Shown here: in pieces, positions 17,619-24,858 of the stretch | Layout: the number at the start of each line of letters is the position of its first letter | Position numbering within the stretch: position 1 is the stretch's first letter | Source of the DNA: Mesoflavibacter zeaxanthinifaciens DSM 18436 | Lineage (GTDB): Bacteria > Bacteroidota > Bacteroidia > Flavobacteriales > Flavobacteriaceae | Direction: 5' to 3' | NCBI RefSeq assembly: GCF_000422365.1 | Contig: NZ_AULQ01000005.1 | Span: 124,001 to 188,000 of the forward strand | Length of the DNA stretch: 64,000 nt | The notes under the pieces: model-generated | Told to the model about the DNA's origin: nothing | Database searches by the model: none | What the model saw: only the letters and a program-made list of their open reading frames with translations | Position numbers and translations under genes: made by a program

Positions 17619-17720
17619 TATATAAGTTTTTAAGCTGCAATATAAGTATTTGACATGTAAAATGTTCTCCTTTTCAATGTTAACTAAACGTTTTCTAGTA
17701 ATAAACAAACAACATATCTC

Positions 17721-17798
17721 ATAACGTTAAGCTAACTTTTTAGTGATTAACTATTAATACCTAGTTAACTTAGACTTTACAGTTTGCCAGTTTCTTTG
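17721..17798 (+). promoter_or_regulatory. PHO-box-like array and promoter of the TonB receptor gene
   Basis: Six 11-bp units run in register: ATAACGTTAAG, CTAACTTTTTA, GTGATTAACTA, TTAATACCTAG, TTAACTTAGAC and TTTACAGTTTG (17721-17786). The first pair has the 7-bp repeat, 4-bp spacer, 7-bp repeat layout of PhoB sites and resembles the two boxes upstream of the Pit gene. A -7-like TTTCTTTG follows at 17791-17798 (alternatively TACAGTTTG at 17778). Control by a PhoB-type regulator is inferred. Confidence 0.5.
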
Positions 17799-17820
17799 CA
17801 CCAAGAATTTAAACAACGCA

Positions 17821-20625
17821 ATGAAAAAAATATTTCTATTATTATTTACATTATTTAGTGTATACGCAAACGCTCAAGACACTGGTTCTATAGCTGGTAA
17901 ACTTACAGATAAAGAATTTGACAACGAACCACTTCCTTTTGCTAATATTCTAATTAAAGGCACTTCAAAAGGTACTACTACAGATGATGCTGGTCTTTAC
18001 ATGTTGGATAATCTAAAGCCAGGTGATTATGTAATTGAGTATAGCTTTGTGGGATACGAAACTCAAACAATAGAAGCAACTGTTGAAGCTGGTAAAGTCA
18101 CCGAAATAAATGTCCCAATGGGCGCTAATGCTGCTTCTTTAGAAGAAGTTGTTATTCAAACAACTACTAAAAGAGAAAGTGAAGTTGCAGTTTTATTAGA
18201 ACAGAAAAAAGCTGTTGAAATTAAACAAATAATAGGTGCAGACGAATTATCAAGAAAAGGAGTAAGTGATGCGGCTGGTGCAGTCGCTAAAATATCTGGT
18301 GTTTCTAAACAAGAAGGATCTAGTAATGTATATGTTCGAGGTTTAGGTGATCGTTACCTTAATACAACTATGAACGGTTTGTCTTTACCATCAAATAATG
18401 TTAATAAAAAGAACATTGACTTAAATTTATTCTCTTCAGATGTAATTCAAAATGTATCTATTAGTAAAGCATATGCAGCTCAATTTTACGGAGATTTCTC
18501 TGCTGGTAATGTAGATGTAACTTCTAAAGAACATAAAGGTGGAAGTTTTGTAGATGTATTTACTGGTTCTGGTTTTAACACAAATGCTATAGACAAAAAC
18601 TTTGTAAGAAGTGAAGGGACTGGTTATTTTGGATACTACGGAAGATATGATCACAACCCTTTTGCTGTTATATTATCTCACGGTGTTGATCCTGTAAGCG
18701 TAAACTCACCTATCAATGTGGCTTATGGAGCATCTGGAGGAAGCTCTCATTCATTTGAAAACGGTTCAAGATTAAGTTTCTTTGTTACAGGAGGATTTGA
18801 AAATAACTACGAATACAGAAACGGTAAAGCTGTAGATTTTTCTACTGTTGAGAAAAAAGCATTTGAAGCTGCAGAAGAATATGAATATTCTACAACTACT
18901 ACTGCTATGGCGAACTTAAACTACAAAATAAACAGTGATAATAACATAAGTTTTAATTCAGTATTTATTAATAGTTCTTCAGATGTTGTCGGTTATTTTG
19001 GTATTGATGGAACAGGTAGAAATAGAGATGCAATTTTAAATACAGACCAAGGGTTTTACCAACAAAATGTTCAGTTTGATCAAACTAAAATGTTTGTTAA
19101 TCAATTATTAGGAAATCACAAATCAGGAAAATTTGAGTTAGATTGGGGATTTGGTTACAACAAAGTATTTTCTGATCAACCAGACAGAAAGCGTTTTAGC
19201 GTAGAAAATTATCAATATGCTTTAGATAATGATCCTTCTACTAACCCAACATTCTACAGTAATGTTGTTTTTGATAATCAACGTTATTTTCAAAAAATTG
19301 AGGATGATGAGTACAACGGACGTTTAAATCTGTCTTATGAAGCTAATGAAAAATTAAAATTCAATATCGGTTATAATGGTCGTAACAAGAAAAGATTATT
19401 TAATAACATAAGATATGGTTACGATATAGTTGATGGTAGCTACGAAATTACAGATATAAACAACTTAAATTCTGTCTTTAACCTAGATAATTTAAATCTA
19501 AATGCAAGTAGTGGTGGTATTTACGAAATTAAAGTAATTAAACCTTACCCAACTTTATCTAACACAAATAGACCAGGACTTTTTGAAAATACGTACACAG
19601 GTAAACTAGACATCTATGCTGGATATTTAGATGCTGAAATAAAAGTTGGAGAAAAATGGTTATTTGTTCCTGGTATTAGAATAGAAAGCTTTGAACAAAA
19701 CATAGCCTATGATGTAATAAACTTAGGTAACAATGGTAACGATTCTAAAACATCTAAAGAAACTTTTATCCTACCTAGTTTAAACATTAAATACGCTATA
19801 AACGAAGACCAAAATCTACGTTTCTCTGCAAGTAAAACAGTATCTACACCAGAGTTTAAAGAAGTAGCTCCGTTTGTTTATGAAGATGTATCTGTACGAT
19901 ATGGAGGTAACCCTGATGCTTTAGGATACTCTGATATTTATAACGCCGATTTAAAATTTGAATCTTTCTTTGGAAGAGGTGAAATATTCTCAGTTGGTGT
20001 ATTTGCAAAACAAATTAACGATCCAATTAATTTAGTTGTTGTTGGTGATGCTACAGGAACACAACGTTACGTAAGAACTGGTGATAAAGCTGAAGTTTAC
20101 GGTGTTGAAGTAGAGTTGAGAAAGAACATTATTGAAGACGAAAACGAAGACGCAGTTTTAGCTTTTGGTGTAAACGCAACTTACATGGACACTAAACAAG
20201 ATTTATACGAAAATATAGACGGAACTTTTGACTTAGCTTTTAATAAAAGTGAAGATGAGTTACAAGGCGCTTCTCCTTTAATCTTAAATGCAGATATAAG
20301 CTACTCTCCTACTTTTAACAACTACAAACCGGTAGCTAACGTAGTATTCTCTTACTTTTCAGACAGAATAGATGCATTAGGATCTGGAGATCTTGGTAAT
20401 ATTATAGAAAAAAGTGTTCCTACTTTAGATTTTGTTTGGAAAAACACTATTAAGGACAATTTTGAAGTTAATCTTAGTGCAAAAAATTTACTAAACCCTT
20501 CAATACAATACGTTAGACAAGACCAAAATCAAGGTGACATTTTAGTTACATCTGCTAATGGTAAAGGTGTAACAGATTATAAAAGAGGTATCAACTTAGG
20601 ACTTCAACTTAAATACAAATTTTAA
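17821..20625 (+). CDS. TonB-dependent outer membrane receptor with N-terminal carboxypeptidase-regulatory-like domain
   Basis: 934 residues. The signal peptide ends at ANAQD, then a CarboxypepD_reg-like beta domain (about 24-110), a TonB plug (about 130-230, with VYVRGLGDRYLNT) and a 22-strand barrel ending in Phe (LQLKYKF). It is not a SusC: no SusD gene follows. Instead a beta-helix lipoprotein is encoded 43 nt downstream. Such receptors import ligands across the outer membrane using TonB energy. The PHO-box-like repeats in front and the phosphate transporter 2 kb downstream suggest a phosphorus-containing ligand, but nothing in the protein proves it. Confidence 0.92.
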   Translation: MKKIFLLLFTLFSVYANAQDTGSIAGKLTDKEFDNEPLPFANILIKGTSKGTTTDDAGLYMLDNLKPGDYVIEYSFVGYETQTIEATVEAGKVTEINVPMGANAASLEEVVIQTTTKRESEVAVLLEQKKAVEIKQIIGADELSRKGVSDAAGAVAKISGVSKQEGSSNVYVRGLGDRYLNTTMNGLSLPSNNVNKKNIDLNLFSSDVIQNVSISKAYAAQFYGDFSAGNVDVTSKEHKGGSFVDVFTGSGFNTNAIDKNFVRSEGTGYFGYYGRYDHNPFAVILSHGVDPVSVNSPINVAYGASGGSSHSFENGSRLSFFVTGGFENNYEYRNGKAVDFSTVEKKAFEAAEEYEYSTTTTAMANLNYKINSDNNISFNSVFINSSSDVVGYFGIDGTGRNRDAILNTDQGFYQQNVQFDQTKMFVNQLLGNHKSGKFELDWGFGYNKVFSDQPDRKRFSVENYQYALDNDPSTNPTFYSNVVFDNQRYFQKIEDDEYNGRLNLSYEANEKLKFNIGYNGRNKKRLFNNIRYGYDIVDGSYEITDINNLNSVFNLDNLNLNASSGGIYEIKVIKPYPTLSNTNRPGLFENTYTGKLDIYAGYLDAEIKVGEKWLFVPGIRIESFEQNIAYDVINLGNNGNDSKTSKETFILPSLNIKYAINEDQNLRFSASKTVSTPEFKEVAPFVYEDVSVRYGGNPDALGYSDIYNADLKFESFFGRGEIFSVGVFAKQINDPINLVVVGDATGTQRYVRTGDKAEVYGVEVELRKNIIEDENEDAVLAFGVNATYMDTKQDLYENIDGTFDLAFNKSEDELQGASPLILNADISYSPTFNNYKPVANVVFSYFSDRIDALGSGDLGNIIEKSVPTLDFVWKNTIKDNFEVNLSAKNLLNPSIQYVRQDQNQGDILVTSANGKGVTDYKRGINLGLQLKYKF

Positions 20626-20668
20626 ATATCAATAACACAATTAAGAATAAAAATTAAAAACTAAAAAA

Positions 20669-21841
20669 ATGAAAAAACAAATAATTCTTGGTTTAGCATT
20701 AGTATCTATGATATTTTCATGCTCTACAGACGACACTTCAGATATTGTAATTAATGACAATAGTGTTACAAATAACAACTCTGGCGGTGGTACAACAGAT
20801 CCTCAAACAATTTTCTTATCTGGTACTTACACAGAAGATTTAACTTTAGACGCAAATAACACTTACAAAATTAATGGTTCTTTAATCATGGCAAGTGGTA
20901 CTACATTAACTATTCCTGCTTGTATGACTATTGAAGCTTTAGCTTCTGGAGCAGACGTTTATGTAGCAATCTCTCAAGGTGCTAAAATTGTAGCTAATGG
21001 TACTCAAGATTGCCCTATAGTATTTACTTCTGATGCTGCTAACCCAGCTGCAGGAGATTGGGGAGGATTAATTTTATTAGGAAGAGCACCAATAAACTCT
21101 GTAACAGGAACAAACACAGCAACTTCAGAAATTGCTAGTCTACCATACGGAGGAAATATTTCTGATGATGATTCTGGATCTTTAAACTATGTACGTGTAG
21201 AGTATTCTGGTGGAGCTGCAGATGGACAATCTGAAAACAATGGTATTTCTTTTTACGGTGTAGGTAACGGTACAGATGTTAATTACATCCAAGCTTACGC
21301 AGGTAAAGATGATGGTATCGAGTTTTTTGGTGGTACAGTAAATGCTAATTATGTTTCTGTTATCAATGCAGAAGACGACTCTGTAGACTGGACAGAAGGT
21401 TACTCTGGTACGTTAACAAACGTATATATATCTAACAGAATTACTGACGATAAAGCTATTGAAGCTGATGGGTACAACACAGATTTTAGCAACGCTACAG
21501 GTACATTCTCTAAACCAACCGTTAACAACTTAACAATTGTTGGTCAAGGTACAGCTGCAGGACATGCAGAAGCTATAAGACTAAGAGCAGGAACACAAGG
21601 TATCTTTAACAACGTACATATTACAGGATACATCGAAGGTTTTGATCTTGATGATCAAGACACAGGTAATGGTGTTATTAGTGACGATTTACAAGTTACT
21701 AATGTAACATTTGTAGATGTTACTACTAAAGTAAAAAATGACACAACAGTATCTTTTACAGATGCAGACTTCTACGTAGGTGAAGGAAACGGAGCAACTA
21801 ATGATTATGCTACTTGGGGAGCAGGTTGGACTGCTGAATAA
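20669..21841 (+). CDS. Beta-helix surface lipoprotein paired with the TonB receptor
   Basis: 390 residues with the lipobox IFSCSTDD (Cys18). An Asn/Gly-rich linker is followed by a repetitive Gly/Asn/Asp-rich region (GDWGGLILLGRAPIN, GIEFFGGTVNANYVSVINAEDD, GTLTNVYISN) that looks like a right-handed parallel beta-helix. I know this protein type as a frequent partner of TonB receptors in Bacteroidota, often annotated as hypothetical. By analogy with SusD it may sit on the receptor as a ligand-capturing lid; this is inference. It ends in a strong terminator and is probably co-transcribed with the receptor. Confidence 0.8.
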   Translation: MKKQIILGLALVSMIFSCSTDDTSDIVINDNSVTNNNSGGGTTDPQTIFLSGTYTEDLTLDANNTYKINGSLIMASGTTLTIPACMTIEALASGADVYVAISQGAKIVANGTQDCPIVFTSDAANPAAGDWGGLILLGRAPINSVTGTNTATSEIASLPYGGNISDDDSGSLNYVRVEYSGGAADGQSENNGISFYGVGNGTDVNYIQAYAGKDDGIEFFGGTVNANYVSVINAEDDSVDWTEGYSGTLTNVYISNRITDDKAIEADGYNTDFSNATGTFSKPTVNNLTIVGQGTAAGHAEAIRLRAGTQGIFNNVHITGYIEGFDLDDQDTGNGVISDDLQVTNVTFVDVTTKVKNDTTVSFTDADFYVGEGNGATNDYATWGAGWTAE

Positions 21842-21860
21842 GCTAATTTTAAAAAATAAA

Positions 21861-21890
21861 AAAAAGCACCTTTTTGAGGTGCTTTTTTTA
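21861..21890. terminator. Bidirectional terminator
   Basis: Stem AAAAAGCACCT/AGGTGCTTTTT (21861-21871 and 21877-21887) with a 5-nt loop, A- and T-flanked, between the converging beta-helix lipoprotein and MORN-like genes. Confidence 0.92.
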
Positions 21891-21906
21891 TTTCTAAAAA
21901 TATAAA

Positions 21907-22263
21907 TTAATCTCTATCTGCTACAGCAGAAGTGTTTTTCCAAGTGTTTACAGAAGTAATACTGTTCGATGAATAATCTACTTCTTTTAAAGTATCGTCT
22001 GTCCAAAAAAACCACTTCCCTACTTTTTTACCATTGTCATAAGCACCTACTACAATTTTATCACCATTTGCATCATATTTTGTCCAAACTCCTTGTAACT
22101 TATTATTCTTATTAAAAAAACCTTGTTGTGCAATAGCACCATTATCATGATAGTATGTTGCTTGAATTAAATCTCCTTTTTTCTCCATTGTTGGCTTATT
22201 AACTTCTTGAGCTGAAACAAACCCTGTAATTAATACCGCAAAAGCCAAAATTAAATTTTTCAT
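21907..22263 (-). CDS. Small secreted MORN/YwqK-like repeat protein
   Basis: 118 residues with a signal peptide ending FVSAQE. The body holds short repeats of the type YYHDNGAIAQQGFF, KLQGVWTKYDANGDKIVVGAY and KKVGKWFFW, the YxxGxxxxxGxW pattern of MORN-variant (YwqK-like) repeats. Members in flavobacteria are often mis-annotated as nicotinic acid mononucleotide adenyltransferases; no nucleotide-transferase motif is present here. It is transcribed divergently from the Pit gene and shares an intergenic region that carries PHO-box-like repeats, so it may belong to the same regulon. The cellular role is unknown. Confidence 0.75.
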   Translation of the reverse strand: MKNLILAFAVLITGFVSAQEVNKPTMEKKGDLIQATYYHDNGAIAQQGFFNKNNKLQGVWTKYDANGDKIVVGAYDNGKKVGKWFFWTDDTLKEVDYSSNSITSVNTWKNTSAVADRD

Positions 22264-22302
22264 AGTATATATTTTTTAAGATTATTATTAATGTTTACAT
22301 AA

Positions 22303-22310
22303 CAAATATA
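22303..22310 (-). promoter_or_regulatory. -7 element of the MORN-like gene
   Basis: On the minus strand this reads TATATTTG, a perfect TAnnTTTG, 40 nt before the start codon. No TTG at the usual distance; PHO-box-like units lie just upstream instead (from 22319). Confidence 0.55.
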
Positions 22311-22318
22311 GTCTATTT

Positions 22319-22362
22319 TTTACAATTTAGATACCTTTACATAACATTAAGTTAACATTAAA
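22319..22362. promoter_or_regulatory. PHO-box-like repeats, copy 1 (between the MORN-like gene and pit)
   Basis: Four units in 11-bp register: TTTACAATTTA, GATACCTTTAC, ATAACATTAAG and TTAACATTAAA. The core at 22339-22360 is identical over 22 bp to copy 2 (22488-22509). It lies next to the promoter of the MORN-like gene and about 200 bp upstream of the Pit gene. Confidence 0.5.
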
Positions 22363-22489
22363 ACTATAAAATATTGATTATCAAGTGTTTGAAAATAAAA
22401 ATTTAACATTAAAAATCAATCAATTACATAAAATATTAGCAGTTTTAAGGGATATTTTACTTAAAAATTATAGAAAACTAAAAAAGAAC

Positions 22490-22534
22490 ATAACATTAAG
22501 TTAACATTACGTTGAAGATAAAAGATGAAATTTG
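22490..22534 (+). promoter_or_regulatory. PHO-box-like repeat, copy 2, and pit promoter
   Basis: ATAACAT (22490-22496), TAAG, TTAACAT (22501-22507): 7-bp direct repeats spaced by 4 bp. The second repeat occupies the -33 region, 19 nt ahead of GAAATTTG (22527-22534), a one-mismatch -7 element. This is the layout expected of an activator that replaces the -33 contact. Confidence 0.5.
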
Positions 22535-22557
22535 CCATAATAAATTAACCATAATTA

Positions 22558-24858
22558 ATGGAAAACATATACTTATTCATGATAATTGCTTTAGCTATTT
22601 TAGCTATTGCAGATCTTGTTGTTGGAGTTAGTAATGACGCTGTAAACTTCTTAAATTCAGCTATTGGCTCTAAAGCTATCTCTTTTAAAACAATAATGAT
22701 AGTTGCTAGTATTGGTGTTGCTTTAGGCGCCATATTTTCTAGTGGTTTAATGGAAGTTGCTAGAAAAGGAATTTTTAATCCTGGCGAATTTATGTTTGAT
22801 GAAATCATGATCATCTTTATGGCGGTAATGATTACAGACATATTACTACTAGACTTTTTCAACTCTGTTGGTATGCCTACCTCAACAACAGTTTCTATTG
22901 TATTTGAGTTATTAGGTGCTGCAGTTGCAGTTTCTTTAATTAAAATCTGGTCTGATGGCGGTACTTCTTCAGAATTAATAAACTATATCAATACATCTAC
23001 TGCAACAAAAATTATCCTTGGTATATTACTCTCGGTGGTTGTTGCATTTACAGTTGGAGCTATTGTTCAATGGTTTACCCGTTTACTTTTATCCTACAAC
23101 TTTCAAGAAAAAGCGAATTGGGTTGGCGCTTTATTTGGTGGTATTGCATTAACTGCAATTACATATTTTATTTTAATCAAAGGAATAAAAGGTACACCTT
23201 ATGCCGATTTAAAATTTGAATATACCAATGGTCTAACCATTAAAGAATACCTAGAAAGTAATGTTATAAACATTATAGGGATTAACCTTGTTGTATGGAG
23301 TGCTATTTCTTTTGCTTTAATAACCGCATTAAAACAAAACATATATAAAATCATAATTTTAGTAGGTACGTTTGCCTTAGCACTTGCTTTTGCAGGAAAC
23401 GATTTAGTAAACTTTGTTGGTGTATTTATTGCGGGTTGGCAATCGTATCAAGAGTATGTTGCCCAAGGTTTACCAGCTTCAGAATTATCAATGAAATTTT
23501 TATCTAAAGCTGTAGAGACGCCTACCCTACTTCTTTTTATAGCAGGTATGATAATGGTAGTTACCTTATGGTTTTCTAGTAAAGCAAAAGACGTAGTAAA
23601 AACATCTTTAGACTTATCTAGCCAAAGTAACACAAAGGAACGTTTTCAGCCTAACTTTTTATCCCGTGGATTTGTTAGATCTGCAATGTTAATGTCTCAA
23701 ATGTACTCTTATGTTGTACCTAACTCGTGGCAAGAAAAAATAAATAAGCAATTTGAAACTCCTGCTATTGATTTAACATTAAAAGAAGAAGATATACCTG
23801 CATTTGACTTAGCTAGAGCAGCTGTTAACCTTATGGTTGCTGCAGTACTAATATCTTTAGCTACATCTTTAGGGTTACCATTATCCACAACATACGTTAC
23901 ATTTATGGTAGCAATGGGTACATCTTTAGCAGATCGTGCTTGGGGCGCAGAAAGTGCTGTGTATCGTGTTGCTGGTGTAATTAATGTAATAGGCGGATGG
24001 TTTTTTACCGCTTTTATAGCTTTTGTCGCATCTGCATTAATTGCTTACTTACTACATCTTAATGTAAAGGTTATGACACCTATATTATTACTTATTGCAT
24101 TTACATTATTAGTAAGAAATTATATAGCTCATAACAAGAAAAACTCAAAAGCTAAAGAAGAAGACAGCTTATTTAAAGCAGAAAGTAGCTCTGTCCAAGG
24201 AGTAATTCATGAAAGTGCAGATAACATAGCTAATGTTGTAAAGAGAGGAAACAAAATTTACACCAATGCAGTTAATGGTTTAGCTAAACAAGATATAAAT
24301 GCGCTAAAGAAAAACAGAAGACAAATCACAAAACTATCTAATGAAGTTGATGATTTAAGAGATCATATTTTCTACTTCATAAAAAACCTAGACGAGTCTA
24401 GTGTTGAAGCAAGTAGTTTTTACATTAACATTTTAGGTTACTTACAAGACATGACGCAATCATTAGATTATATTTCTAAGATTAGTTATAAACATGTCCA
24501 TAACAACCACAAAAAATTAAAATTTAATCAACTTAAAGAACTAAAATTAGTAGACGAAGCTTTAGAAAAGCTATTAATGGATACTAAAGAAGCTTTTAAA
24601 TCTCGTTCTTTTGAGGATATAGCACGCATTTTAAACAACAGAGGTAAAGTGTACGACTTGGTAAAAGAAAAAATACAAATGCAGGTTGAACGTACTCGCA
24701 CTGAAGAATCTTCACCTAAAAACACCACACTTTATTTTAGTTTATTATTAGAAACTAAAGATTTACTTAGTGCTACAATGAACTTACTAGACGAATACAA
24801 TCAAGCTTTTGACAGTAAGGTACCACCAGCTAGAGTGGCTGAAAACGAAGAAGAATAA
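22558..24858 (+). CDS. Pit-type inorganic phosphate transporter fused to a PhoU/DUF47-like domain
   Basis: 766 residues. The N-terminal about 530 form a PiT permease with the duplicated signature: SNDAVNFLNSAIGSKAI near the N-terminus, GNDLVNFVGVFIAG, and GLPLSTTYVTFMVAMGTSLADRAWG in the second half. Residues about 560-750 are soluble, helical and charged, resembling a DUF47/PhoU-like bundle (KLSNEVDDLRDHIFYFIKNL). In many bacteria Pit and a DUF47 protein are adjacent genes; here they are one chain, as in other Bacteroidota. It imports phosphate (as metal phosphate) driven by the ion gradient. Two identical PHO-box-like elements lie upstream. Confidence 0.92.
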   Translation: MENIYLFMIIALAILAIADLVVGVSNDAVNFLNSAIGSKAISFKTIMIVASIGVALGAIFSSGLMEVARKGIFNPGEFMFDEIMIIFMAVMITDILLLDFFNSVGMPTSTTVSIVFELLGAAVAVSLIKIWSDGGTSSELINYINTSTATKIILGILLSVVVAFTVGAIVQWFTRLLLSYNFQEKANWVGALFGGIALTAITYFILIKGIKGTPYADLKFEYTNGLTIKEYLESNVINIIGINLVVWSAISFALITALKQNIYKIIILVGTFALALAFAGNDLVNFVGVFIAGWQSYQEYVAQGLPASELSMKFLSKAVETPTLLLFIAGMIMVVTLWFSSKAKDVVKTSLDLSSQSNTKERFQPNFLSRGFVRSAMLMSQMYSYVVPNSWQEKINKQFETPAIDLTLKEEDIPAFDLARAAVNLMVAAVLISLATSLGLPLSTTYVTFMVAMGTSLADRAWGAESAVYRVAGVINVIGGWFFTAFIAFVASALIAYLLHLNVKVMTPILLLIAFTLLVRNYIAHNKKNSKAKEEDSLFKAESSSVQGVIHESADNIANVVKRGNKIYTNAVNGLAKQDINALKKNRRQITKLSNEVDDLRDHIFYFIKNLDESSVEASSFYINILGYLQDMTQSLDYISKISYKHVHNNHKKLKFNQLKELKLVDEALEKLLMDTKEAFKSRSFEDIARILNNRGKVYDLVKEKIQMQVERTRTEESSPKNTTLYFSLLLETKDLLSATMNLLDEYNQAFDSKVPPARVAENEEE

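Follow-up and report, generated by a model that had tools for sequence, protein, structure and literature searches.

Genes and candidate operator sites of the block

The DNA analyzed here, a stretch of 64 kb referred to as the window (G000:C4:124001-188000), comes from a genome of 2.97 Mb in 21 contigs whose nearest named relatives, based on the Pit protein, are Flavobacteriaceae, e.g., Aestuariivivens, Bizionia, Xanthomarina, and Tamlana. It holds a block of four genes, encoding a TonB-dependent receptor, a beta-helix lipoprotein, a MORN-like secreted protein, and a Pit-type phosphate transporter, together with the candidate regulatory elements listed below (scores in bits, from the matrix described in the text).

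17675..17694, minus strand: fourth box, AAAACGTTTAGTTAACATTG, score 17.2, between an HD-domain dGTPase-like gene and the receptor
17721..17740, plus strand: distal box of the receptor promoter, ATAACGTTAAGCTAACTTTT, score 17.7, half-sites TAAC at 17722 and 17733
17755..17780, plus strand: proximal half-sites on the same 11-bp grid, TAAT 17755, TAAC 17766, TTAC 17777
17795..17798, plus strand: TTTG, putative -7 core (Bacteroidetes type) of the receptor promoter
17821..20625, plus strand: TonB-dependent receptor, 934 aa, with CarbopepD_reg_2, Plug, and TonB barrel; TIGR01782-like
20669..21841, plus strand: outer-membrane lipoprotein, 390 aa, right-handed beta-helix (pectin-lyase-like) fold
21907..22263, minus strand: MORN-like secreted protein, 118 aa
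22303..22310, minus strand: TATATTTG, putative -7 element of the MORN-like gene, read from the sequence
22341..22360, plus strand: box near the MORN gene, orientation opposite to the gene, score 22.0
22490..22509, plus strand: pit box, score 22.0, half-sites TAAC at 22491 and 22502
22531..22534, plus strand: TTTG beginning 21 bp past the box, putative -7 core of the pit promoter
22558..24858, plus strand: Pit-type phosphate transporter (PHO4), 766 aa, long form
24154..24855, plus strand: C-terminal PhoU-fold domain of Pit, last 234 residues, all-helical, AlphaFold2 pLDDT 84.9

Two identical 22-bp copies of ACATAACATTAAGTTAACATTA lie between the MORN-like gene and pit (22339-22360 and 22488-22509), as the earlier note on this DNA had described, and the motif has no other exact copy in the genome: the 19-mer TAACATTAAGTTAACATTA occurs twice in the 2.97 Mb, both times in the block, and once more with one mismatch. 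The same note had reported a degenerate form upstream of the receptor. A site is indeed present there (17721-17740), and it has zero mismatches to the family consensus TAACNTT-NNNN-TAACNTT.

In an A+T-rich genome, identical copies of this kind could be put down to chance or to a recent duplication without function, and a loose search of the window is compatible with this, since the literal 18-mer with three mismatches allowed gave 31 matches versus 36.9 expected. Without enrichment, loose matching proves nothing and an independent test was needed. The literal motif with three mismatches was thus discarded as a search tool and replaced by a matrix built solely from the pit promoters of 80 relatives, all of them other species. 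With this matrix, only four places in the 64-kb window reached 14 bits or more, at 17675 (minus), 17721 (plus), 22341 (plus), and 22490 (plus), and all of them are in the block. The operator consensus is a direct repeat with an 11-bp period, aTAACNTT-NNNN-TAACNTT. Neither the minus-strand site at 17675-17694 nor the constant distance to the -7 element, described below, had been seen in the earlier note; the sister species (G001) likewise has a box between the dGTPase-like and receptor genes, with a score of 13.6.

Conservation of the box and promoter geometry

At pit, the site was found with at most one mismatch in 58 of the 80 relatives, nearly always 63 to 74 bp before the start of the gene, versus 0.1% of shuffled upstream regions. 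At 12 bits or more, the pit matrix also matched upstream regions of porin (38/67), receptor (23/51), and MORN (34/44) genes, and those of unrelated genes in 7 cases out of 539. Control sequence from the relatives, 448 kb in all, contained no match reaching 14 bits, and 4 of 533 unrelated upstream regions matched. The sister species, which carries the same reduced block as the window, keeps all the block sites at matching places. The conservation of the pit site, the TTTG spacing, and the matrix controls already refute chance or duplication as the origin of the two copies, and we give that explanation practically no weight.

The MORN-like gene was recognized at the equivalent position of the block in more than 40 relatives, and 33 of 44 loci had a box in reverse orientation upstream of it. 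In the relatives, the porin promoter falls in the interval equivalent to that of the 22341..22360 box. In operons that begin with the lipoprotein gene, this is the gene preceded by the box (L036, 19.2; L038, 18.0; L014, 16.4; also L016 and L029). Among Pit genes, a box was found in 16 of 26 long forms of an independent draw (score of at least 11) and in none of the four short forms, which are devoid of the C-terminal domain. Some secreted proteins of ca. 130 aa that resemble just the N-terminal carboxypeptidase-regulatory-like part of TonB receptors have a strong box of their own (17 to 22; L083:127-516, L066:177-557, L042:200-598, and L030:147-536).

The boxes keep a fixed distance to TTTG, which we take to be the core of the Bacteroidetes -7 element TAnnTTTG. 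At pit, 47 of 69 distinct promoters have TTTG starting precisely 21 bp past the 20-bp site, and no other offset is seen in more than one. The offset is 10 or 21 bp in porin promoters and 54 bp in receptor promoters (13 of 22 receptor-type promoters, and likewise in G001). As 10, 21, and 54 differ by multiples of 11, all of them fall on one 11-bp grid, on which the TAAC half-sites occupy positions -18, -29, -40, -62, and -73 from TTTG. TAAC was present at -29 in all 25 grid-aligned receptor promoters; because TTTG was picked among the grid offsets, the independent part of this test is provided by the secondary half-sites. In the window, the pit promoter has TAAC at -40 and -29, while the receptor promoter has TAAC at -73, -62, and -29, TAAT at -40, and TTAC at -18. 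The simplest reading of this arrangement would be an OmpR/PhoB-type regulator bound as tandem dimers beside RNA polymerase.

Phosphate genes and the PhoB-like regulator

In two relatives (G134 and G064) the block appeared in a fuller version, with the order receptor, lipoprotein, MORN, porin, pstSCAB, phoU, and pit. Sites were located at porin, receptor, and pit in G134 and at porin in G064. Genes pst, phoU, and pit are also clustered in G052, G061, and G037, and G004 has the order receptor, lipoprotein, porin-sized gene, and pst. Porin, Pst, and PhoU are missing from the genus of the window, where Pit carries a fused PhoU-fold domain. A profile search of this genome gave no PstC over the cutoff and no PstS, neither porin O/P nor PhoX was found in it, and the only PHO4 gene found was the pit of the block. 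Over the family, a PstS-like match was absent from 138 of the 149 genomes sampled. The idea that Pst and Pit are strict alternatives, suggested by two genomes with pst and no Pit (G004 and G008), was ruled out by five others that have both.

Since this genome is devoid of pst and PhoX, the expectation that the motif would also precede pst and phosphatase genes was examined in the relatives. Of the nine Pst operons found, seven have the box ahead of pstS or of the porin-pst operon, with scores from 11.6 to 21.5. The two best sites reached 21.5 and 21.3, and three to four of the seven were weak (11.6 to 12.9), which we count against the phosphate-starvation reading of the block, as we do the absence of a site before any of four PhoX genes, the phosphatases covered by this check.

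The best-scoring PhoB-like gene of this genome (C3:67249-67929), adjoined by a histidine kinase gene, has a box 93 bp upstream with a score of 21.6. Counting this genome, 29 of 30 species have a site of at least 11 within 250 bp upstream of the ortholog. The regulator box (L143:7157-7176) is nearly always reversed in the relatives, mostly near -91; the boxes of pit, porin, and receptor are forward and that of MORN is reversed. The protein falls under the curated PhoB cutoffs in its two best families (TIGR02154, 216 versus 296.2 bits; NF053854, 213 versus 270 bits), so that PhoB is its closest family and membership is not established by those scores, a further point against the phosphate-starvation reading. 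Taken with the boxes before pst and the blocks that include pstSCAB-phoU, the box before the regulator supports the earlier proposal of a phosphate-starvation block with shared PHO-box-like sites.

The putative operator shares several features with a PhoB-type PHO box, namely repeats of 11-bp period, sites before pst, porin, and pit, and a fixed spacing to the core promoter. As in the proteobacterial PhoB regulon, it is a direct repeat of 7 plus 4 bp located near the core promoter of phosphate genes. The half-site of the proteobacterial PHO box is CTGTCAT, whereas here it is TAACNTT, paired with a TTTG -7 element of the Bacteroidetes type. In a literature search, we found no such operator described with its promoter spacing, and the nearest was the PhoP motif of Riemerella anatipestifer. 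This regulator binds its own promoter, its motif has the conserved core TTTAACA, and a TonB receptor is among its targets (PMC9603813). It differs in that the motif is reported as ArcA-like and very widespread; neither a direct-repeat geometry nor a spacing to the -7 element is described in the accessible part of that report.

Riemerella PhoP is also an argument for a general OmpR/ArcA-like regulator, responding to envelope or respiratory stress and including the phosphate genes only as part of a wide regulon. It gave 583 peaks in vitro, with the ArcA-like motif, and affects a Bat operon (PMC9603813), and deletion of PhoPR raises pstS 8-fold (PMC5399024). With hundreds of binding places and a rise in pstS, PhoPR is perhaps not simply an activator of the phosphate response in that species, which we take as a caution on the sign of regulation in the case studied here. 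However, in the species examined here the box is rare and specific, as indicated by the control sequence and the unrelated upstream regions, and the genes it goes with are those of pst, porin O/P, the long form of Pit, and the regulator itself. We consider a general stress regulator unlikely.

The receptor-lipoprotein pair, Pit, and the proposed uptake locus

The lipoprotein gene is single copy in the genome. Its family has no structure in the PDB detectable by sequence, and the predicted model is a right-handed beta-helix (pLDDT 82.8, with low confidence for the first 42 residues). The top VIA-align matches were polysaccharide lyases, epimerases, and tailspikes (Z of 20 to 23 over 240 to 290 residues), while the best Foldseek E value was only 1.2e-3. 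An invariant Cys18 agrees with the lipobox, and there is an invariant acidic cluster (D214, D215, E218, D236, D237, D240, E265, and D267). With its gene beside a TonB receptor and a predicted pectin-lyase-like beta-helix, the protein shares two features with the ElpS/FI-FII-FIII family. The SusCD-like PusCD systems also combine a TonB receptor and a surface lipoprotein under phosphate control, but a domain search gave no SusD domain, and the lipoprotein, a beta-helix, does not qualify as a partner of that type.

The closest parallels come from Flavobacterium johnsoniae, in which TonB receptors (Plug, CarbopepD_reg_2) beside pectin-lyase-fold lipoproteins (FI/FII) belong to the low-phosphate clusters PUSIII and PUSIV and are made specifically under phosphate depletion and not under iron or nitrogen depletion (PMC8115612). 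One of these pairs sits in the cluster PUSIV, which holds phoBR and an OprP-type porin (PF07396); in our case, unlike in F. johnsoniae, the block includes pit, and the regulator gene lies on a different contig. That paper never uses the word "promoter", i.e., no regulatory sequence is described in it. The F. johnsoniae lipoproteins share 31 to 36% identity with a low-phosphate Caulobacter lipoprotein (PMC8115612). In Caulobacter crescentus, the gene of the secreted lipoprotein ElpS (cc0170), made under phosphate starvation, adjoins the TonB receptor gene cc0171 (PMC2996285). The differences are that elpS also adjoins type II secretion genes and that cc0171 is reported to be constitutively expressed (PMC2996285). 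The likeness to both pairs is one of order, fold, and regulation, and by analogy with the F. johnsoniae pairs, the receptor may import phosphate or a phosphorus compound.

It is possible, though less likely, that the locus is phosphate regulated and yet the pair imports iron, another colimiting nutrient, or a phosphatase metal, or serves only as a sensor. The receptor scores below the TIGR01782 cutoff and has no substrate assigned at the family level, the acidic cluster of the lipoprotein could bind metal, and the effect reported for ElpS is on alkaline phosphatase activity, not on measured uptake (PMC2996285). Against this, two phosphate transporters lie in the same block as the operon and have the same box, and the comparable F. 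johnsoniae pairs answer to phosphate only among the three depletions mentioned above.

Pit is clearly recognized by its PHO4 domain (115 bits versus a cutoff of 33.7). For its C-terminal domain, the best Foldseek matches were all PhoU-family structures (best E value, 6.6e-5), and VIA-align gave Z values of 16 to 18 to such structures over about 200 residues, while the Pfam PhoU score (20.6 bits) was under the cutoff of 23.5. Thus, this genome without Pst has kept a PhoU-like module fused to its only recognized PHO4 transporter. We suggest tentatively that in flavobacteria devoid of Pst and PhoU this fusion might be a phosphate sensor controlling the PhoR-PhoB-like pair. If so, a symporter would replace the Pst-PhoU signaling complex and would be induced by the regulon that it controls itself.

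Considering all of the above, we interpret the block as a phosphate-starvation uptake locus of a flavobacterium without Pst, with a probability of about 0.86. When phosphate is low, the PhoB-like regulator would bind the tandem 11-bp TAACNTT repeats just upstream of the -7 element, where they would take the place of a -33 element, and would switch on the receptor-lipoprotein operon, the Pit-PhoU transporter, and probably the MORN-like gene. The beta-helix lipoprotein at the surface would capture phosphate or a phosphorylated compound, or aid its release, the receptor would pull it across the outer membrane, and Pit would move phosphate across the inner membrane. This scheme builds on the observed sites, their conservation and fixed promoter geometry, their presence before pst operons and the regulator gene, and the gene neighborhood; that PhoB binds them, that low phosphate switches the genes on, and what compound is moved are the parts that we infer. 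What is new is the operator consensus with its promoter geometry, the Pst and Pst-less forms of the block, and the Pit-PhoU fusion under this putative control. In both marine waters and soils, Flavobacteriaceae are important consumers of organic matter, and a concrete operator sequence and promoter geometry for their phosphate response allows prediction of the phosphate regulon in hundreds of genomes. A TonB receptor and beta-helix lipoprotein of uncertain function are tied by gene order and regulation to phosphate uptake, and the question is raised of how phosphate is sensed without Pst.

Pattern matches and targeted stretches provided some other regulon candidates in this genome. A RagA/SusC-family receptor (C4:214394) with a one-mismatch site is at best a weak candidate, since its matrix score was only 11.7 and TTTG was off the grid. 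A gene for a GDPD lipoprotein (C1:143845) has a strong box of 18.2 (L146:5783-5802; G000:C1:143782) with TTTG at +10, but it was discarded as a conserved member because no site was found at orthologs of at least 45% identity, those of the sister species included; we count this, too, against the phosphate-starvation reading. The box before a calcineurin phosphoesterase gene (C1:514391; L009:1599-2435, about 514391-515227) is weak, scoring 11.4; TTTG follows it at +54, and half-sites on the 11-bp grid occupy -73, -62, and -18. We call the gene PlcP-like solely from its domain family and a general resemblance. PlcP is phosphate regulated in marine bacteria and in F. johnsoniae (PMC4796936, PMC8115612), and this gene is a possible lipid-remodeling member of the regulon.
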